This document shows positions 22,456 through 42,356 of a stretch of 42,356 nucleotides of DNA, in pieces. The stretch is taken from assembly GCA_020072765.1 (NCBI GenBank), contig JAIQGD010000071.1, positions 1-42,356 of the forward strand. The letters run 5' to 3'. Both the position numbers and the translations under genes were made by a program. The number at the start of each line of letters is the position of its first letter. Position 1 is the first letter of the stretch. The notes beneath the pieces were generated by a model, which searched no databases, was not told the DNA's origin, and saw only the letters and a program-made list of their open reading frames with translations. Origin of the DNA: Terriglobia bacterium. Lineage in GTDB: Bacteria; Acidobacteriota; Terriglobia; Acidiferrales; UBA7541.

Positions 22456-23319
22456 ATGTGGCAGAGTCGAACTGTGGATTCGTCCTTGGTGACAGGCATC
22501 CTGGCCGTCGTGTTCGGATTGATTGTGGGCAGTTTTTTGAACGTATGCATCGTCCGAATTCCGGAGGGGAAATCGATCGTTTGGCCGGCTTCGGCATGTC
22601 CGAAGTGTGGCGCGGCGATCCGCCCGTACGACAACATCCCGGTGGTGAGCTATCTGCTGCTGCGGGGCAAATGCCGCGGCTGCCAGACGGCCATCTCGAG
22701 GATCTACCCGGCCGTGGAACTGCTGACGGCGGTATTGTTCTGGGGATGCTACCGGATGTTCGGGCCGACGCCGGAGGCTGTGAAGTGGGCGGTATTCTCG
22801 GCGGTGATGGTGGTGCTGGTGTTCACGGACCTGCGCGAACGGATCCTGCCGGATATGGTGAACTATCCGGGTCTGGCCGCGGGGCTTGGGTTCAGCCTCT
22901 TTATCCCGCCCGGGGACGGCACGGCACTCTGGATGGCAAATCGTCTATTCGGCTATTTTCCTCCGCCACGTGCGGCATCGTTCGCCGAAGCACTGCTCGG
23001 CGCGGCGCTCGGGGGAGGGCTGCTGTGGCTGGTCTCGGAAGTCTATTTCCGGCTGCGCAAGCGCGAGGGCATGGGACTCGGCGACGTGAAAATGATGCTG
23101 ATGACGGGCGCGTTTTTTGGAGCCAAGCGCACGCTGCTGACCATTTTTGCGGGCTCCCTGCTCGGGAGCCTGCTGGGAATCGCATTCATTCTCGCGCGGC
23201 GCAAGGGCTCCAATTACGAACTTCCCTTCGGAACGTTTCTCGGCCTGGCGGCGCTGCTGGTGGTCTTCTTTGGAACGCCGGTGGTGAACTGGTATCAGTC
23301 GCTGTTGATGGCCCGGTGA
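22456..23319 (+). CDS. pilD: Type IV prepilin peptidase / N-methyltransferase
   Basis: PilD cleaves the leader of type IV prepilins and pseudopilins after the conserved Gly and methylates the new N-terminus, in the inner membrane. The 287-residue protein begins with FGLIVGSFLNVCIVRIPEG, has the two cysteine pairs of the methyltransferase domain (CPKC and CRGC, residues ~48-75), and the aspartyl protease motifs FTDLRERILPD (~122-132) and GLGDVKMM (~210-217). Multiple transmembrane helices are visible. Length is normal. It opens a same-strand group with the histidine kinase (19 bp gap) and a sigma-54 activator, and serves the pilus genes at 31.8-38.7 kb and the prepilins at 41-42.2 kb. Confidence 0.95.
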   Translation: MWQSRTVDSSLVTGILAVVFGLIVGSFLNVCIVRIPEGKSIVWPASACPKCGAAIRPYDNIPVVSYLLLRGKCRGCQTAISRIYPAVELLTAVLFWGCYRMFGPTPEAVKWAVFSAVMVVLVFTDLRERILPDMVNYPGLAAGLGFSLFIPPGDGTALWMANRLFGYFPPPRAASFAEALLGAALGGGLLWLVSEVYFRLRKREGMGLGDVKMMLMTGAFFGAKRTLLTIFAGSLLGSLLGIAFILARRKGSNYELPFGTFLGLAALLVVFFGTPVVNWYQSLLMAR

Positions 23320-23338: not shown

Positions 23339-24769
23339 ATGAATTCTCCCTTTCCTCTGCACAACTTGACCCTGTCCCCCGGCGGACTGGCGGCCGTGAC
23401 CGTGATGCTGGCCATCCTGGTGGGCGGAAGCATTGCCCTGGCGGTGATGATGCGCCGGCTTCTGCGCCGGGACGCGGCCGCTCCGGACAAAGGGTGGAGC
23501 ACCCCCGGCGTCCGAGCGCAGAATGCGCCCGCGTTTGCGACCGCTTCGATGCAAGGCGTGATCGAGAAGCTGCGGGCGCAGGAAAAGGAACTGGCGCGGC
23601 TGCACATGCTGGCGCAGGAGCGCGCGCAGGAATCGGAACGCCTCACCGAGGAAGTCACGCGAAATATGCCCACGGGGCTGCTGCTGGTGAGCGCGACCGG
23701 CGCGATCAGCTCGGCCAATCCGGCCGCCGAGGATGCACTTTCCCTCCGGCCCATCCGCTACCGCTCGTACAAGGAGCTTCTGGGGGCCGACTCGGAACTG
23801 GCCCAGATGCTGGCGACGTGCCTGCGGGACGGAACGATGTTTCGCCGCAGCGAGATCGAGCACCAGACGCGCGAGGGCGAAACGCGGCATCTGGGCGTGA
23901 CGATCTCGCCCATCTACCATTCCAAGCGCTCGACGGGAGCGGCGCTGCGCACGCGAGCCTCGGATCTTGCGGTGCCGCCCGAAAACAAGGTGAGCGGGGC
24001 GCTGTGCCTGCTGAGCGATTTGACCGAGCTGGCCGCGCTGCAAAAGCAGATTCGCTGGAAGGAAAATCTAGCGGCGCTCGGGGAGATGTCCGCCGGCATC
24101 GCGCACGAGTTCAAGAACGCGCTGGCCACGATTTCCGGCTACGCGCAGATGATGCGCAGCGAACTCCCGCCCGGCGAGACGCGCGAATCGGCGGAGCGAA
24201 TTCTGAATCAAACGCGCGCGCTTACCCAGGTGGTGACGGAATTTCTGCGCTTCGCCAAGCCCCTGGAAATCTGCTACGAGGCCGTGCCCATGCAGGCGCT
24301 GGTGGAAGACGTGGCCACCGAGCTCCGGCAATCCATTCCCTCCTCGGCCATCCGGTGCGAAGGCGCGTTCGAGGATGTTCCCGGCGATGAAGCGTTGCTG
24401 CGGCAGGCGCTGCTCAACCTGGCGCGCAACGGAATGGAGGCCGCGCAAGCGGCCAGCCAGATGCCGTCGGTGACCATCTCCGGCTCGGTGGAAGAGCTCG
24501 CCACGCGGAAATGGCAGCGCATTTCGGTGGCGGATAATGGCCCGGGCATTCCGGAAGGCGACCTGCCCAAAATTTTTCTCCCGTTCTATACCACCAAGTC
24601 CCAGGGCACGGGGCTGGGCTTGGCGGTGGTGCAGAAGGTGGCGCTGCAGCACGGGGGCAGCATCGAGGCCCGCAACCGCCCGAGCGGAGGGGCGGAGTTC
24701 CTGCTGTGGTTACCTTTGCGGCAGGAGCCGTCGCGCGCGCTATTCCCCTCGGAAGCCGCCAGCATCTAA
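23339..24769 (+). CDS. PilS/NtrB-like sensor histidine kinase
   Basis: A 476-residue kinase: one N-terminal transmembrane helix (~16-38), a coiled-coil linker (~73-107), a PAS-like domain (~108-230), HisKA with phospho-acceptor H256 in GIAHEFKN, and a HATPase domain with N box LLNLARNGMEA (358-368), G1 DNGPGI (399-404) and G2 GTGLGLAV (423-430). All catalytic residues are present. Only one membrane segment and almost no periplasmic domain are seen, unlike the six-helix PilS of Pseudomonas, so the signal may be cytoplasmic or membrane-borne. It lies 19 bp after pilD and is separated from its likely response regulator by one small secreted-protein gene. Confidence 0.92.
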   Translation: MNSPFPLHNLTLSPGGLAAVTVMLAILVGGSIALAVMMRRLLRRDAAAPDKGWSTPGVRAQNAPAFATASMQGVIEKLRAQEKELARLHMLAQERAQESERLTEEVTRNMPTGLLLVSATGAISSANPAAEDALSLRPIRYRSYKELLGADSELAQMLATCLRDGTMFRRSEIEHQTREGETRHLGVTISPIYHSKRSTGAALRTRASDLAVPPENKVSGALCLLSDLTELAALQKQIRWKENLAALGEMSAGIAHEFKNALATISGYAQMMRSELPPGETRESAERILNQTRALTQVVTEFLRFAKPLEICYEAVPMQALVEDVATELRQSIPSSAIRCEGAFEDVPGDEALLRQALLNLARNGMEAAQAASQMPSVTISGSVEELATRKWQRISVADNGPGIPEGDLPKIFLPFYTTKSQGTGLGLAVVQKVALQHGGSIEARNRPSGGAEFLLWLPLRQEPSRALFPSEAASI

Positions 24770-24812
24770 ACTGGTAGAGGGCTTATCCCCCATAGCGTCC
24801 CAGGAGGCGCTT

Positions 24813-25412
24813 ATGATGCGTAGAATTCTGTGGTTGGCCGCGGCGGCGGCGATCTGTGTCTCTCCCCCCGCCCGCTGCCAGAGCCAGGATCAGCAGCAGG
24901 GCCAGGGTACTTCTCCCGGCGCGGCGGCAGCTCCCCCCGCGGCATCCGCGCCCGAGGAGTCACTCGGCGAAGCGGCGCGCCGTTTGCGGGAAAAGAAGAA
25001 AGAGATCCCCAAGGCCACGAAGGTTTTCACCAACGACAATCTTACGGGGGAACCTGCAGGAGCCCCGGCACCAGGGGGAACCGCTCCGGGCAAGGCCGAA
25101 GGGGCGGCGGCCGCGCCTTCCGGCGGCATGGACGAAGCGGGCTGGCGCGCGAAATTCGCTTCGCTGCGGCACAAGCTCGAACAGGATCAGGCCAATCTCG
25201 CCGTCCTGCAGCGCGAGCTCAACACGCTCAGCCTGCAAAGCTACACGGATCCCGTCAAGGCCATGCAGCAGCAATTCAGCCGCGAGGACATCAACAAGAA
25301 GAAGGCCGAGATTGATGCCTGCAACAAAGCCATCGCCGCGGACAAGCAAGCCATGGATGACGCCGAAACGGAGCTGCGCAAATCAGGTGGCGACGCCGGC
25401 TGGGCCCGCTAG
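24813..25412 (+). CDS. Small secreted coiled-coil protein between kinase and response regulator genes
   Basis: A 199-residue protein with a signal peptide (ILWLAAAAAICVSPPARCQS), a Gln/Gly/Ala/Pro-rich spacer, the motif SLGEAARRLREKKKEIPKAT followed by KVFTNDNL (residues ~50-77), a second low-complexity spacer, and a C-terminal coiled coil (LRHKLEQDQANLAVLQRELN; KKKAEIDACNKAIAADKQAM). The motif before KVFTNDNL seems to recur in several acidobacterial exported proteins, from memory. The frame is open further upstream, but AGGAGG at 24802-24807 sets the start at ATG 24813 (or 24816). Its position between kinase and regulator suggests a role in pilus regulation or assembly; this is inference. 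Confidence 0.8.
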   Translation: MMRRILWLAAAAAICVSPPARCQSQDQQQGQGTSPGAAAAPPAASAPEESLGEAARRLREKKKEIPKATKVFTNDNLTGEPAGAPAPGGTAPGKAEGAAAAPSGGMDEAGWRAKFASLRHKLEQDQANLAVLQRELNTLSLQSYTDPVKAMQQQFSREDINKKKAEIDACNKAIAADKQAMDDAETELRKSGGDAGWAR

Positions 25413-25423
25413 ATAATTTCGCC

Positions 25424-26812
25424 ATGGAACCCGTCCTCCTTGTCGAAGACAAAGCCGAGCTGAGGGCCATGCTCCACAAGGCGCTGGACCGCTTCGGCTA
25501 CGCCGTCGAAGAGGCCCCGGACGGCGAGGCGGCGATCGAGAAAGTGCGCAGCCGCCGCTATCTGCTGGTTCTTTCCGACTTGAAACTTCCCGGCCATTCC
25601 GGCCTCGACGTGCTGCGCGAGGCCAAACGCGCCGAGCCCGCCCTGCCCTTTATCCTCATCACCGCTTACGGCTCGGTGGAAGACGCCGTCACCGCCATGA
25701 AAGAGGGCGCCTTCGATTTCATTCAGAAGCCGGTGGACCTGGACCACCTGAAACTGCTGCTGGACCGCGCGGCCGGCCAACAGGAACTCCTGCGCGAGAA
25801 TCTGCTGCTGCGCGAAGAGTACGCCGCGCGCTACGGTTTCCCGCGCATCGTCGGGGAACACCCGGCGATGAAAGAGGCGAGCCAGATGACCCAGCGGGCC
25901 GCCGCGACCGATTCCACGGTATTGCTGCTGGGCGAAAGCGGCACCGGCAAGGAACTGTTTGCCCGGGCGATTCATCACCTGAGCCCCCGGGCCGAGCATC
26001 CCTTCGTGGCGCTGAACTGCGCGGCGATTCCCGAGGGGCTGGTCGAGAACGAACTGTTCGGCCACGAGCGCGGAGCGTATACGGGGGCCGGCGCGCGCAA
26101 GATCGGCAAGCTCGAGCTGGCGCACCGGGGAACGCTGTTCCTGGACGAAATCGGCGAGTTGCCTCTCAGCGTGCAGGGCAAATTGTTGCGCGTGATCGAG
26201 GAGCGGAGCTTCGACCGCGTCGGCGGCACGCAGCAGATCGACGTGAGCGTGCGCATTGTGACGGCCACGAACAAGGACCTGCGCGCCGCCATCGCCGATA
26301 AAACCTTCCGCGAGGACCTCTACTTCCGCATTGCCACCGTGCCGATCACGATTCCGCCGCTGCGCGACCGCGGCGACGACGTGTTGCTGCTCGCCGAACA
26401 CTTCCTCGCGCGCTTCCGGCGGGAGTTTCGCAAACCCTCCCTGGCGTTGACCCGGGACGCGTGCGAGCGCCTGCAAACCTACCCCTGGCCGGGGAACGTC
26501 CGCGAACTGCAGAACGCCATCGAGCGCGCCGCGATCCTGGCCGCTGGCTCCGAGATCGACGCCGGCGCCCTGCAGTTGCTGGCCGCCAAACCCGCGCCCT
26601 CCGAATTGCCCCAGGGCATGCTCGCGGAGCAGTTTCTATGGGATGGGCCGCTGGAAGAAGTTTCCCAGCGCGCCGTGGCGCACGTCGAGCGCTTCAAGAT
26701 CCAGGACGCCTTGCGCGCCTCGAAATGGAACAAAACGCGCGCCGCGGAAAAGCTCGGCGTCTCCTACAAAACCCTCCTGCACAAAATCCGCACCTTCGGC
26801 CTGGAAAACTAG
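25424..26812 (+). CDS. PilR/NtrC-like sigma-54-dependent response regulator
   Basis: A 462-residue activator with the full NtrC layout: receiver domain with phospho-acceptor D52 in VLSDLKLPG and K102 in QKP; AAA+ domain with Walker A GESGTGK (170-176), sigma-54 contact loop GAYTGA (217-222, Tyr in place of the usual Phe), Walker B LFLDEIGE (238-245) and arginine-rich PPLRDRGDD; and a Fis-type helix-turn-helix at the C-terminus (~424-462, AAEKLGVSYKTLLHKIRTFG). It activates sigma-54 RNA polymerase at -24/-12 promoters. A matching promoter precedes the lead prepilin gene in this window (42231-42246). It lies 11 bp after the secreted-protein gene, so it is co-transcribed with the kinase. Confidence 0.93.
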   Translation: MEPVLLVEDKAELRAMLHKALDRFGYAVEEAPDGEAAIEKVRSRRYLLVLSDLKLPGHSGLDVLREAKRAEPALPFILITAYGSVEDAVTAMKEGAFDFIQKPVDLDHLKLLLDRAAGQQELLRENLLLREEYAARYGFPRIVGEHPAMKEASQMTQRAAATDSTVLLLGESGTGKELFARAIHHLSPRAEHPFVALNCAAIPEGLVENELFGHERGAYTGAGARKIGKLELAHRGTLFLDEIGELPLSVQGKLLRVIEERSFDRVGGTQQIDVSVRIVTATNKDLRAAIADKTFREDLYFRIATVPITIPPLRDRGDDVLLLAEHFLARFRREFRKPSLALTRDACERLQTYPWPGNVRELQNAIERAAILAAGSEIDAGALQLLAAKPAPSELPQGMLAEQFLWDGPLEEVSQRAVAHVERFKIQDALRASKWNKTRAAEKLGVSYKTLLHKIRTFGLEN

Positions 26813-34907: not shown

Positions 34908-35897
34908 TCAAGATCCTCCGTTCATCATCCAGCCAGCCAGTGCATCGAGGCCGTTGGGGATCAGGTCCAGCGCGGCGCGATCGAGCGCCTGCGCCCCTTC
35001 GGCTTCGGCCAGCGAGCCGGCGCGAATCTTCAATTCGGCGCTCACGGCGCTTTGAAAAACGTCTTCCCTGCCGCCGAAACCGGCCAGCCGGGCGCGGTCA
35101 ATGGGCTGGCCCCAGGTGTCCTGGTAATAGGCGACGGCCGGAAAAATCTCATCGAGCACGGCCTGCGGGTCGAGCCGCGCGGCCTCCGCCGGCATCTCGG
35201 TGGAGCGGTAAACGCACAGGCCGGTGCCGTGGACAATGACCGTGGTCAACACCCTGCCGCAGAGACGGATCAGCAGGGTCGCTCCGCGCTCTTCCAGAAG
35301 CGGCAACGACGCCAGCGTCGAACTCAGCACCACTCCGGCATGGCCGCCCACCGACTCGATCAGCTCTTCGTATTCGCGGAGAACCCGCTGGCGCGCCACC
35401 GCGGTGACCACTTCCAGAGTTCCCTGGCGGCCACTCTGGCGCGTCCAGGAGACCACGGTTTCGTCCACATCGAACGGGACACTCTTCTTCAGGCGCCAGC
35501 GCAACAGCTGCAAGGCCTCCTCGCGCCGCCGGGGCAGCGTCTCAAACGGCAGGAGGAAGACGCGCACGACGGGGTCGGGCACGAGCAGCGCCAAGGGCGC
35601 GCCGCGCAGGGGAACGCGGCTCAGAACTCGGCGGAGAGCCGCCAGGACAGCCTCCCGTTGGGTGATGTTCACTTCCAGCGGCGACGGCGTCACGGCTCCG
35701 GCCGGCAGCGGCTCAACCGCCCCGCTCTCCAGCCGTCCGCGCGCGCTCCCGCAGCGGCCCGCCGCGACGTGGTCGGAGGCAATCTCGATCACCAGCGCCG
35801 GATGGGGCATGGCGTGCAACCACCGCCCCATGCGCCGCAGCAGGCCCGGCTGCTGCCATGAGCCCGGCGACGTTTCCAGACCCGTGTGGCTAGTCAA
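34908..35897 (-). CDS. pilM: PilM-like actin-fold pilus assembly protein (TTG start)
   Basis: A 329-residue cytoplasmic protein with an actin/FtsA-like fold that holds PilN at the membrane. Recognisable parts are ALVIEIASDHVAAGRC, LLVPDPVVRVFLLPFETLPR, RRREEALQLLRWRLKKSVPF and the phosphate-binding-like AVARQRVLREYEELIESVGG. It is less conserved than many PilMs (EIASDHVAAGRC in place of the usual LDIG) and lacks an obvious nucleotide-binding DxG signature. The TTG at 35897 overlaps the pilB stop by 8 bp and has AAGGTGA upstream. Confidence 0.82.
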   Translation of the reverse strand: MTSHTGLETSPGSWQQPGLLRRMGRWLHAMPHPALVIEIASDHVAAGRCGSARGRLESGAVEPLPAGAVTPSPLEVNITQREAVLAALRRVLSRVPLRGAPLALLVPDPVVRVFLLPFETLPRRREEALQLLRWRLKKSVPFDVDETVVSWTRQSGRQGTLEVVTAVARQRVLREYEELIESVGGHAGVVLSSTLASLPLLEERGATLLIRLCGRVLTTVIVHGTGLCVYRSTEMPAEAARLDPQAVLDEIFPAVAYYQDTWGQPIDRARLAGFGGREDVFQSAVSAELKIRAGSLAEAEGAQALDRAALDLIPNGLDALAGWMMNGGS

Positions 35898-37518
35898 GGA
35901 AGGTCACCTTATTGATCTCGCGCAGCGTGGTCAATCCCGCATGCACTTTGCGCAGGCCGGATTCGCGCAGAAAGACCATGCCCTCGGCGCGCGCCGTGCG
36001 CTTGATTTCCGACGTGGGCCGGCGGTCCACAATCATTTCGCGAATGCGGTCGGAAAGATCGAGCAGTTCGGTGATGGCCGAGCGGCCGTGGTAGCCGCTG
36101 CCGGAACACTCCAGGCAGCCCGCGCCCTCGTAAAACGGCACGCGCCCCCACTCGGCGGGATCGAGACCCGATTCCTGCAGGATCGCGGCGGAATAGTTCA
36201 CGCGCTTCTTGCAGTGCTCGCAAATCACGCGCACCAGCCGCTGCGCCATGATGCAGTTCAGCGCGGAAACGAAATTGTAGGGCTCGACGCCCATGTTGAT
36301 GAAGCGGCCGATCACGTCGGTGACGTTGTTGGCGTGGACCGTGGTGAAAACCAGATGTCCGGTGAGCGCCGAGTTGATGGCGATCTGCGCGGTTTCCTGA
36401 TCGCGGATTTCGCCGACCATGATTTTGTCCGGGTCGTGCCGCAGAATCGAGCGCAGTCCGCGCGCGAAGGTCAGGCCCTTCTTCTCGTTCACGGGAATCT
36501 GGGTGATGCCGCGGACCTGGTATTCCACCGGGTCCTCGATGGTGATGATTTTGTCCTCGTCGTTCTTGATCTCGTTGATGGCGGCGTATAGCGTGGTGGT
36601 CTTGCCGGAGCCGGTGGGCCCGGTGACCAGCACCATGCCGTAGGGCTCGTGGATGTAGCGGCGGAAGCGCGCCAGTTCGTCGGCTTCGAATCCCACGACG
36701 TCGAGCGTGAGATTGTGAAACTTTTCGCTCAACGTCTCCTTGTCGAGCACGCGGAGCACGGCGTCTTCCCCGAAGACCGACGGCATGATGGAAACGCGGA
36801 AATCGACGAAGCGGCCCTTGTACCGCACGCGGAAGCGGCCGTCCTGAGGGATGCGGCGCTCGGCGATGTCCAGCTCGCTCATCACCTTGATGCGCGACAG
36901 GATGGTGGCGTGCCAGTCCTTGGCGAGCGGCTGCATGGCGTATTGCAGGGCGCCGTCGATGCGGTACTTCACGGCCACTTCGGCGTCGCGCGTTTCGATG
37001 TGGATGTCGCTGGCGCGGCGCTCCAGGGCGGTGAAGATGACGGTGTCCACCAGACGCACCACGGGACTCACGCCGGTCTCGCGCGTGAGCCGCTCCATGG
37101 AAATATTCTCGTCGCCCTCTTCTTCGCTGACCACCTGCAGGGTGAACCCTTCGGTGGCCTGGTCGAGCACGCGCTGCGACTGCTCGGTCCTCTTGAGCAG
37201 GTCGGCGATCTGCGAGGCGGTGGCGACCTTGATCTGCAGGCGCTTGCCGAGCAGCAGCGCAAGTTCGTCGGTCTGTTGCAACTGGCTGGGATCGGCCAGG
37301 GCCACCACCAGCACGGAGTCGTGGGCTTCGATGGGGACGAAGTTGTAGCGGAACATCAGCTCGGCGGGGATGCTGCGGAATAATTCCGGATCGATGCGCT
37401 GCTCGCGCAGATCGACGAAGGCGCAGCGGTAGCGCTCGGCCAGCCGCCGGGCTTGCTCGTGCTCGGCCGCCGCGTCGGTGACGCCGGCAGGAATCGGATT
37501 ATTGCCGCTTGTGGCCAT
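35890..37518 (-). CDS. pilB: Type IV pilus / type II secretion extension ATPase (PilB/GspE family)
   Basis: A 542-residue hexameric ATPase powering pilus extension. N-terminal GspE N-domain (~20-110), then the ATPase core: Asp box SDIHIETRDAEVAVKYRID (170-188), Walker A GPTGSGKTTT (300-309), ITIEDPVEYQV (326-335), Walker B-type IMVGEIRDQETA, and His box GHLVFTTVHAN. The zinc tetracysteine motif is C433xxC436 with C468xxC471, as in PilB and GspE and unlike PilT. All catalytic residues are intact. ATG 37518 is chosen because it matches the family N-terminus; the frame is open further upstream in the pilC gene. Gaps: 5 bp from pilC, 8-bp overlap with pilM. Confidence 0.96.
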   Translation of the reverse strand: MATSGNNPIPAGVTDAAAEHEQARRLAERYRCAFVDLREQRIDPELFRSIPAELMFRYNFVPIEAHDSVLVVALADPSQLQQTDELALLLGKRLQIKVATASQIADLLKRTEQSQRVLDQATEGFTLQVVSEEEGDENISMERLTRETGVSPVVRLVDTVIFTALERRASDIHIETRDAEVAVKYRIDGALQYAMQPLAKDWHATILSRIKVMSELDIAERRIPQDGRFRVRYKGRFVDFRVSIMPSVFGEDAVLRVLDKETLSEKFHNLTLDVVGFEADELARFRRYIHEPYGMVLVTGPTGSGKTTTLYAAINEIKNDEDKIITIEDPVEYQVRGITQIPVNEKKGLTFARGLRSILRHDPDKIMVGEIRDQETAQIAINSALTGHLVFTTVHANNVTDVIGRFINMGVEPYNFVSALNCIMAQRLVRVICEHCKKRVNYSAAILQESGLDPAEWGRVPFYEGAGCLECSGSGYHGRSAITELLDLSDRIREMIVDRRPTSEIKRTARAEGMVFLRESGLRKVHAGLTTLREINKVTFLD

Positions 37519-37523
37519 CGAGT

Positions 37524-38738
37524 CTATCGCCCGCCTCCACCGGCTTGCAGGGAAAACATGGGCAGATATAGCGCGATCAAGATGAAGCCTACCACAACGG
37601 CCATGACCACCAAAATCACGATGGGAATCCAGGTCAGCGTGCGCTGCAGCCGCGTATTCACTTCTTCTTCGTAGAATTCGGCCACGCTGGTCAGCATGGC
37701 CGCCAAGGCTCCGGACGCCTCTCCCACTTCGATCATTTCCAGCGCCAGGCCCGGAATCAGGTGCGTTTCGGCCAGGCCGGCGTGCAGCGATTGCCCTTCC
37801 TTGACGCGGGCGGCCGCCTGCTCGACCGTGGTCGCCAGCAGGGGGCTGCCGATCGCGGCGGCCGAGGTGTGCAGGGCCGGGACTAGGGGCGTCCCGCCTC
37901 CCAGCAGCGTCGAAAGCGTGCGCACAAATTGTGCCAGGTGAGCCTTCACCCATACATCTCCCAGCAGCGGCACGCGCGGTTTGAATCGGTCGACGGCCAG
38001 GGCTCCGGCCCCCGAGCGCGTCCAGAACAGCACGACGACGGCGCCCAGGGCCACGGCGGCGACGAGAGCCAGAAAATAGTTTCGCAGCGGCAGGGCCACC
38101 GCCAGCAGAATGCGCGTAGGAGCCGGCAGCGCGATATCGAGTTCGTGATAGAGCGACGCGTATTGGGGCATGGCGTAGGTGACCACAAAGGTGACGATGA
38201 GCAGGGCTGCGGCCACCAGCACCGCGGGGTAAATCAACGCGGTCATCAGGCGGCTGCGGAAGCCCGTGGTGACGCGCAGGTACCCGATATATTGTTCGAG
38301 GACGCCGCTGAGGTTTCCGCTCCGCTCGCCCGCCCCCACCGCCGTGACATACACCAGCGGAAACGATCCCTGCGCCTCCAGCGCTTCCGACAGCGACGCG
38401 CCGGCGCGAACGCGCTCCCGCACCTCGCCCAGAATCGGACGAAGCCTAGGCGCTGCCGCGCGCTCGGCCAGCAGATCCAAGGCCCTAAGAATCGGCAGGC
38501 CCGCCTTGATCAGCGTGTTGAACTGCTGGTTAAAAATTAGGAAGTCATCGGGGCGGACCATGCGGCTGCGGCGTCCCGGACCGAGCCGCTCCAGCAAATC
38601 GAAATGATGGCGCACGGCAAAGACGTAGTAGCCCCGGTCGGCCAGCTTCTGCCGGGCCTCGTCCTCCGACTGCGCCGTCTCGACCTGGTCAAAGATGCGG
38701 CCGGAGGCATCGCCTACTTTGCAGACAAATTCCGCCAT
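37524..38738 (-). CDS. pilC: Type IV pilus / type II secretion inner-membrane platform protein (PilC/GspF family)
   Basis: A 404-residue membrane protein with two tandem GspF domains. The first ends in FPLVYVTAVGAGERSGNLSG and the second in IPGLALEMIEVGEASGALAA, the characteristic G-E-x-S-G repeats. Membrane helices are LIYPAVLVAAALLIVTFVVT (~167-186), a helix near 215-235, and the C-terminal WIPIVILVVMAVVVGFILIA. The start ATG 38738 gives MAEFVCKVGDASGRIFDQVE, typical of PilC/GspF. It heads the assembly operon (pilC-pilB-pilM-pilN-pilO-pilP-like-pseudopilin-Ig-like). Confidence 0.95.
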   Translation of the reverse strand: MAEFVCKVGDASGRIFDQVETAQSEDEARQKLADRGYYVFAVRHHFDLLERLGPGRRSRMVRPDDFLIFNQQFNTLIKAGLPILRALDLLAERAAAPRLRPILGEVRERVRAGASLSEALEAQGSFPLVYVTAVGAGERSGNLSGVLEQYIGYLRVTTGFRSRLMTALIYPAVLVAAALLIVTFVVTYAMPQYASLYHELDIALPAPTRILLAVALPLRNYFLALVAAVALGAVVVLFWTRSGAGALAVDRFKPRVPLLGDVWVKAHLAQFVRTLSTLLGGGTPLVPALHTSAAAIGSPLLATTVEQAAARVKEGQSLHAGLAETHLIPGLALEMIEVGEASGALAAMLTSVAEFYEEEVNTRLQRTLTWIPIVILVVMAVVVGFILIALYLPMFSLQAGGGGR

Positions 38739-41003: not shown

Positions 41004-41552
41004 CTACTCGACCGGTTGCAGCGCGTCGCACGCCGCGACGGTTGCCGCAACGACGCCGCTTGGATCGAAATGGATTACGCCTGGGGTGTCGCTGCAGAAG
41101 CTGCGGTGGCCGGTAACGCCGAGCACCAGCGGAGTTCCTGTAATCAGGTAACCCCCATACCCTGGAGCGTTACAGCCAGGGGCCAGCGCTGTGTTAACGG
41201 TCTGCCCCGTGTAGGCGAAGGCGTACCCGCTCTTTTGATTCGGCGCCGTGGAGACGATCGGATCTCCCAACTCAGACAAATCGCAGGTCGCCGGGCCGGT
41301 TCCGCTCAAGGCTACCAGGCTTGGGGGGTAGCCGTTTGCATAGGTCGTGGAGTAGGCGATGGCGGCACTGGTGACGCTGCGAATACTGGCCGCCGCGGAG
41401 GCTTCGTTGGCGGCCATGCGCGCCCGCAGAAAGCTGGGAACAGCAATGGATGCGATGATCAGGATGATGGCTACAACAATGAGGAGTTCAATCAGGGAAA
41501 ATCCGGATTCGCTTTTCAGACCAGTTGCGCCGAATTTGGGAAGGGGCCTCAT
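41004..41552 (-). CDS. Type IV prepilin, second (probably minor) subunit
   Basis: A 182-residue prepilin. The leader (MRPLPKFGATGLKSESG, 17 residues) ends at G17, followed by FSLIELLIVVAIILIIASIA with Glu5 conserved, and then FLRARMAANEASAAASIRSV, typical of Acidobacteria and delta-proteobacterial pilins. The C-terminal globular part has Cys pairs (C~89, C~128, C~153, C~175) likely forming disulfides, and short hydrophobic strands. The gene sits just after a strong intrinsic terminator that follows the other prepilin, so it likely has its own weak promoter or depends on read-through. PilD (22456) should process it. Confidence 0.92.
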   Translation of the reverse strand: MRPLPKFGATGLKSESGFSLIELLIVVAIILIIASIAVPSFLRARMAANEASAAASIRSVTSAAIAYSTTYANGYPPSLVALSGTGPATCDLSELGDPIVSTAPNQKSGYAFAYTGQTVNTALAPGCNAPGYGGYLITGTPLVLGVTGHRSFCSDTPGVIHFDPSGVVAATVAACDALQPVE

Positions 41553-41579
41553 GTCGGTCTCGCTCGAATCCTTGAATTC

Positions 41580-41614
41580 AAAAAAAGAGGGGGGAGATGG
41601 TTCCTCTCCCCCCC
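41580..41614 (-). terminator. Strong Rho-independent terminator between the two prepilin genes
   Basis: Read on the minus strand, a GC stem (GGGGGGAGA arm at 41605-41613 complement to 41589-41597) with a 7-nt loop is followed by TCTTTTTTT (41588-41580). It ends 27 bp before the start codon of the second prepilin. Confidence 0.9.
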
Positions 41615-41636
41615 TTTTCCGGAAGTAACTAACCCG

Positions 41637-42167
41637 CTAGTTCCCGAGTGGTACGGCCTTGCTATCGCAACCGCCGCTGGTACCGTCAACCCCGATGGCC
41701 GCGTTGCTCTGCCGGATGACGTTCGACGCGTCATTGCAGTAGTACACGGTCCCGGTGCTCGTGGTCACCGGATTAGCGTTGAATATAAACATGTCCGAGG
41801 CGCCTGCAGCTGTGCATCCCTTGGGAATGCTCGTAACCAGATTGGTACCTGCGGTCAAAAGGAAGCTATAACCGGACTTCGAGCCAGACGCCAAGGTGGC
41901 ATCAATCAAACTCGCGGCGTCGCAATTCGGGGTCGCATTGTAAGACAACTGCGCCATCGTTGTCGGAAAACCGTCTCCGTACGTGCTGCTGTACATCACC
42001 GAGGCGCTGCCCAAGGTGCGCAGCGACGCGGCGGCGGACGACTGGTTGGCGGCAATCTTGGCGCGCAGCAGGTTCGGGATGGCGATGGCCGCGATGATCA
42101 GAATGATCGCCACGACGATCAGCAACTCAATCAACGAAAAGCCCTTCTCTCTCTTGTTCAGTTTCAT
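41637..42167 (-). CDS. pilA: Type IV prepilin, probably the major subunit
   Basis: A 176-residue prepilin with a short leader (MKLNKREKG, 9 residues) and mature N-terminus FSLIELLIVVAIILIIAAIA, Glu5 conserved. NLLRAKIAANQSSAAASLRT completes the helix. The globular domain has cysteines C~86, C~127, C~146 and C~167 (two probable disulfides), and Ser/Thr-rich loops. AGGAGATA 7 nt before ATG 42167 is a strong ribosome-binding site; an upstream in-frame extension to 42302 crosses the sigma-54 promoter and is rejected. It is transcribed from the sigma-54-type promoter at 42231-42246 and ends at the terminator 41580-41614. Confidence 0.95.
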   Translation of the reverse strand: MKLNKREKGFSLIELLIVVAIILIIAAIAIPNLLRAKIAANQSSAAASLRTLGSASVMYSSTYGDGFPTTMAQLSYNATPNCDAASLIDATLASGSKSGYSFLLTAGTNLVTSIPKGCTAAGASDMFIFNANPVTTSTGTVYYCNDASNVIRQSNAAIGVDGTSGGCDSKAVPLGN

Positions 42168-42230
42168 GCTTATCTCCTGGGAGCTGTGGCTCCGAATCTC
42201 TGTACTCCGGTGGAGTACGCCTGCTGTTAG

Positions 42231-42246
42231 TGCAAGGCCGATGCCA
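42231..42246 (-). promoter_or_regulatory. Sigma-54 (-24/-12) promoter of pilA
   Basis: On the minus strand: TGGCAT-CGGCC-TTGCA. It matches TGGCAC-N5-TTGCW at 10 of 11 defined positions, and the invariant GG and GC are exactly 10 bp apart. Expected transcription start is near 42219, giving a ~50-nt leader before the pilA ATG at 42167. The PilR-like activator at 25424-26812 is the obvious candidate activator. Confidence 0.85.
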
Positions 42247-42356
42247 GAGGCGCGTCTGGATTGATGTTCGCGACACATTTCCATTATACGGCGCACAATC
42301 AATAAGATACAGCTTATGTCCGTTGAGGTTTCCTTCCGGGCACGGCTGGTCTTCTC

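Follow-up and report, generated by a model that had tools for sequence, protein, structure and literature searches.

Which sigma factor and which activator drive transcription of the major prepilin gene pilA in this bacterium? The gene lies close to a contig end. The window, meaning the whole stretch of DNA that was analysed, is contig C119 in full (42,356 nt), from a fragmented source assembly (3.78 Mb in 152 contigs, 97% complete). Most of the named relatives of its pilin come from acidobacterial genomes. A preliminary description had suggested a PilSR-sigma54-pilA circuit with both of its ends inside the window. The circuit itself is well supported by the evidence below, but its placement was not borne out, since the PilS and PilR genes lie on another contig, C141.

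A conserved sigma-54 promoter upstream of pilA

The features on which this part of the analysis bears are the following:

41637..42167, minus strand: pilA, major prepilin, 176 aa; N_methyl Pfam match, nearest named family PilA_Myxo, below cut-off
42231..42246, minus strand: −24/−12 (sigma-54) element of pilA, TGGCAT-N5-TTGCA; exact consensus match, identical 16-mer at the second pilA, conserved in relatives

The minus strand from 42246 to 42231 reads TGGCATCGGCCTTGCA, with GG at 42245–42244, GC at 42233–42232 and ten bases between them. This direct reading confirmed the TGGCAT-N5-TTGCA element with GG-N10-GC spacing that had been described before the lead prepilin; it is separated from the pilA ATG (42167) by 63 bp. 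The ~ 110 bp said to remain beyond the promoter were measured as 110 bp to the contig end. Within the window, TGGCAYN5TTGCW matches exactly at the pilA site and nowhere else. The genome has eight exact matches, two of which belong to the two pilA copies, and the promoter 16-mer of the C141 copy is the same as that of the window. Among the six other matches, one (C36) lies 45 bp before a short TonB-like ORF and one (C62) 57 bp before a 426-aa ORF, and the others are without a clear gene or fall within coding-looking DNA. When one mismatch was allowed, the window contained two matches against 2.27 expected. The motif by itself is thus weak evidence, and it is position and conservation that mark the promoter as more than chance.

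We gathered pilA upstream regions by a whole-genome search of relatives, from named genomes and from retrieved stretches, and scored them at 11 positions with GG-N10-GC mandatory and a cut-off of at least 9/11. Such a site was present 40–95 bp before a short-leader pilA ATG in 41 of 56 related genomes, which here and in the box counts below are not independent samples, versus 0.7 for shuffled upstreams. Scores of at least 9 were reached by 26 of 50 short-leader pilA upstreams versus 3% of the 521 regions that precede other ORFs; pilA of G019 and G028 scored poorly. When the window was compared with G001, a genome of the same genus, the pilA site alone among the sigma-54 sites of the locus was conserved in place. 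The genome encodes a single complete RpoN with AID, CBD and DBD domains, and the RpoN-box text RRTVAKYRE was found in its sequence. Judged by position and conservation, pilA carries a real, evolutionarily conserved sigma-54 promoter.

A candidate activator box beyond the contig end

The pilA region is present only twice in the genome, on C119 and on C141, and both copies are at contig ends: C141:2–824 (L066:2–824) matches window positions 41536–42356 with 90% identity, and the C141 pilA is 84% identical to that of the window. The contigs of several relatives also break near pilA, and true tandem pilA units occur in several relatives. The two copies represent either a tandem duplication or strain variants within a fragmented assembly. 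The window ends within the control region:

42340..42356, minus strand: the contig breaks off within the pilA control region; from the C141 alignment, the candidate PilR box would fall ~ 19–33 bp beyond

In the preliminary description no activator site could be assigned. This holds for the window copy, where the contig ends ~ 19 bp before the box position, but not for C141: the search it had proposed for a conserved inverted repeat past 42356 was run using C141 and the relatives, and it yielded a candidate. The palindrome TGACA-N5-TGTCA was first noticed in aligned pilA upstreams, centred ~ 135 bp upstream of the −24 GG. On C141 it reads GGTCAAAAACTGTCA (C141:843–857) and lies 137 bp from the GG. 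This copy has 2/10 mismatches and is not by itself above chance, so the case depends on conservation across the family.

We scanned spacers of 2–11 bp with 10 positions scored and observed that a spacer of 5 alone was clearly enriched: 27 of 49 upstreams scored at least 8/10 versus 3.9 in shuffles, and 18 of 49 scored at least 9/10 versus 0.4. In a second genome set, retrieved afterwards, a spacer of 5 again stood out alone (20 of 32 at 8/10 or better, 10 of 32 at 9/10 or better). Where genomes had both elements, 35 of 44 box centres were located 119–146 bp upstream of the −24 GG, and box and promoter were found in register in 34 of 56 genomes versus 0.025 in shuffles. A combined pattern of half-site plus promoter occurs at two places in the source genome, one of which is pilA.

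The PilS–PilR pair adjoining pilA

On the minus strand of C141, the order is pilB, pilT, pilC, pilS, pilR, then a divergently oriented ORF (TPR-containing and membrane-protein-like), then pilA. The pair is encoded as follows:

C141:6176–4494, minus strand: pilS, six-TM kinase; 6TM_PilS PF25323 above cut-off
C141:4487–3096, minus strand: pilR, NtrC-type regulator; receiver, AAA+ (GAFTGA) and Fis HTH; adjoins pilS, near pilA

Across the genome, the 6TM_PilS domain was found in the C141 kinase only, and the C141 PilB exceeds the curated PilB cut-off. By the domain and neighbourhood criteria tested, the C141 pair is PilS/PilR. In G001, a single contig carries pilB-T-C-S-R-pilA-second prepilin-LolA-hydrolase-GspF-GspE-PilM-...-hemN-[25424 orthologue, kinase, pilD], and the core of this order is common to several family members. 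The contiguity in G001 indicates that the window covers just the downstream half of the locus, whose PilSR end was lost at an assembly break. Within the window, 35890–38738 (minus strand) holds GspE- and GspF-like genes that score below the PilB and PilC cut-offs, together with a PilM-like gene; this second assembly set shows synteny with the canonical pilB-T-C genes of C141.

PilR is single-copy in 49 of 61 family genomes, with 69–86% identity. No full PilR was found in G025 (98% complete) or G075 (95%), yet the orthologue of the window regulator at 25424 is present in both and G025 has pilA; these absences may reflect assembly gaps or another activator. Its adjacency to pilA and its co-occurrence with the box across the family lead us to infer that PilR binds TGACA-N5-TGTCA. 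Desulfonema magnum was considered as an external source of PilR and dropped, as its 6TM kinase had no adjoining GAFTGA regulator in the stretch examined, and a search of solved structures for a PilR reference produced none.

A second NtrC-type pair behind pilD

The kinase and NtrC-type activator that had been described behind pilD are indeed there:

22456..23319, plus strand: pilD, prepilin peptidase
23339..24769, plus strand: PAS-HisKA-HATPase kinase, presumed partner of the 25424 regulator; no 6TM_PilS domain
25424..26812, plus strand: NtrC-family response regulator, not PilR; receiver, AAA+ with GAYTGA, and Fis HTH

Between the kinase and the regulator (~ 24800–25412, plus strand) there is a small ORF that begins like a signal peptide and contains a Gln/Pro/Ala-rich stretch. 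The genome has ~ 18 sigma-54 activator domains, so the occurrence of one inside the window says little. Linkage to T4P is indicated by conservation: orthologues of the 25424 regulator are present in 49 of 61 family genomes, and full orthologues of both this regulator and PilR are missing in all five sampled genomes of genus g12 (G030, G067, G074, G079, and G083), which suggests that the T4P locus was lost in g12. G030 was also searched for the pilin and gave only a weak match. With identical counts and the same absence in g12, presence across the family does not separate the two regulators; the genomes that do so are G082 and G088, described below. As a second NtrC-type pair located inside the T4P cluster, the 23339/25424 pair is, on these genomic grounds, a second T4P-linked NtrC-type system.

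What the second pair does was considered in two ways. In the first, control has two inputs: PilSR is the main one, and a further signal from the pilD-linked pair acts on pilA, pilR or pilus assembly. This extends the PilSR model and is compatible with it. It draws on the presence of two conserved NtrC-type pairs flanking one T4P locus family-wide and jointly absent in g12, and on the precedent of PilS2R2 and NmpR around PilSR in Myxococcus xanthus. However, we detected no second box and no second conserved sigma-54 promoter in the locus that could be attributed to 25424, and we regard two-input control as a tentative proposal with the balance against it.

In the second, the 25424 regulator and the kinase at 23339 would themselves be the PilSR of this genome and drive pilA, as the preliminary description had proposed. 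As a sigma-54 activator, the regulator has a usable GAYTGA, a motif kept in 12 of 12 orthologues (GAYTGA-type variants still work; PMC6615313). It sits within the same syntenic T4P locus, it shares with PilR the family-wide distribution given above, and pilA has the one sigma-54 site of the locus whose place is conserved between the window and G001. Against this, a better PilSR pair adjoins pilA and has the PilS membrane domain, whereas the window kinase lacks the PilS six-TM domain and has ~ 2 hydrophobic segments versus ~ 5 in PilS. In the tree, the 25424 regulator formed a clade separate from PilR with full support, and its recognition helix differs from that of PilR. Moreover, G082 and G088 (genus g5; 95–98% complete) lack a 25424 orthologue (best matches 41–43%) but keep PilR, the −24/−12 element and the upstream box, an argument that the conserved control region of pilA does not require 25424. 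G090 (g5, 91% complete) likewise has no 25424 orthologue and keeps PilR and −24/−12, with a weaker box. It is thus very unlikely that 25424 is PilR, and that assignment was abandoned in favour of the C141 pair.

The pilA transcript and nearby elements

The elements around the predicted transcript are:

42283..42288, minus strand: TATAAT, possible second (sigma-70-type) promoter; genus-limited, no good −35
42202..42220, minus strand: predicted transcription start, G at ~ 42220, and 5′ stem-loop; +1 placed 12 nt past the −12 C
41588..41614, minus strand: Rho-independent terminator after pilA; 10-pair stem and T run
41004..41552, minus strand: second prepilin, long leader; best sigma-54 site 6/11

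Placed from the −12 element, the transcript would start near 42220 and open with a 5′-terminal stem-loop, GTACTCC-ACC-GGAGTAC, at 42202–42218 (minus strand). The stem-loop begins at +2/+3 in most members of the genus. In relatives it reads GTACCCC-GCCA-GGGNGTAC, with one C-G to T-A pair change, and in genus g5 a different hairpin, GTGC-TCTG-GCAC, occupies the same position. Many pilA leaders, among them those in L038, L041, L100, and L138, open with a stem-loop at the predicted sigma-54 start, and the sequences differ between genera. The pilA stem-loop is perhaps an mRNA stabiliser. A near-identical terminator sequence lies behind the C141 pilA copy, and the terminator suggests that the pilA mRNA is mostly monocistronic. 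For the second prepilin (41004..41552) we found no sigma-54 site comparable to that of pilA.

Five members of the genus keep the TATAAT that lies upstream of the sigma-54 site: G000, the source (both copies), G001, G004, G005, and G009. This TATAAT may provide an additional sigma-70 reading of pilA in this genus. That it mainly drives pilA, with the sigma-54 element secondary or silent, is highly improbable: it has no recognisable −35 and is not fixed outside the genus, whereas −24/−12 and the box are family-wide, and the conserved 5′ stem-loop begins at the sigma-54 +1. Finally, although one-mismatch matches in the window are at chance level, the idea that the −24/−12 match is a chance motif can be set aside with near certainty, being refuted statistically by the 41 of 56 genomes versus 0.7 in shuffles, the fixed position and the register with the box.

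Comparison with known systems

The pilA gene of Geobacter sulfurreducens directly follows pilR and is preceded by an RpoN promoter (PMC2725144). The acidobacterial locus shares the pilR–pilA neighbourhood and the RpoN promoter at pilA but differs in the divergent TPR-containing ORF that separates pilR from pilA in the source genome. It differs further in the fixed TGACA-N5-TGTCA box and the tandem pilA units seen in the sequences of the acidobacterial family. In Pseudomonas aeruginosa, PilS is a kinase with six TMs, and at pilA PilR works together with sigma-54 (PMC6058289); a six-TM PilS and an NtrC-type PilR with sigma-54 at pilA are found here too. The hallmarks of the P. aeruginosa PilR site are TGTN11AGA and nearby GTCT elements (PMC6058289), whereas the candidate site here is one palindrome, its spacer exactly 5 bp long, that lies ~ 135 bp before −24.

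Myxococcus xanthus has two pilRS pairs within its T4aP cluster (PMC6060248). Both pairs are needed for motility, pilA expression needs PilR, and NmpR acts indirectly and binds upstream of pilR (PMC6211767). The likeness of our locus to PilSR and PilS2R2/NmpR, two NtrC-type pairs per T4P cluster, was compared by cluster arrangement only (PMC6060248; PMC6211767). In a literature search confined to sources other than subscription journals, PilR-sigma54 control of pilA did not turn up for Acidobacteriota.

A model for pilA transcription

Most probably, sigma-54 transcribes pilA from 42231–42246, activated by the C141-encoded PilS–PilR through the palindrome, with a start near 42220. In this model, the element at 42231–42246 would be used by RNA polymerase with sigma-54, and the activator would be PilR, encoded together with the six-TM PilS directly upstream in this locus, on contig C141. 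Once phosphorylated, PilR would bind TGACA-N5-TGTCA, which is centred ~ 135 bp before the −24 GG. The bound PilR would loop to the promoter, where its GAFTGA AAA+ domain would remodel the closed complex, and the transcript would begin near 42220 with the 5′ stem-loop. The promoter, the box and their fixed register, the gene order, the domains and RpoN were read from DNA and predicted protein sequence; the direction of the phosphorelay, the DNA looping, the start site and PilR as the binder are the presumptive steps that connect them.

It is also conceivable, if rather doubtful, that Acidobacteriota have two conserved NtrC-type pairs at opposite ends of the T4P locus, with PilSR working on pilA via TGACA-N5-TGTCA and the pilD-linked pair sending a further signal into that pilA/pilR output, a Myxococcus-like arrangement either kept or separately evolved. 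The locus illustrates that a contig end can make a reader join the right promoter to the wrong regulator. The remaining logic would be that of the textbook PilSR-sigma54-pilA circuit, and pilin expression in Acidobacteriota would thereby gain a concrete control region, with a sigma-54 promoter, a candidate operator and a named activator.
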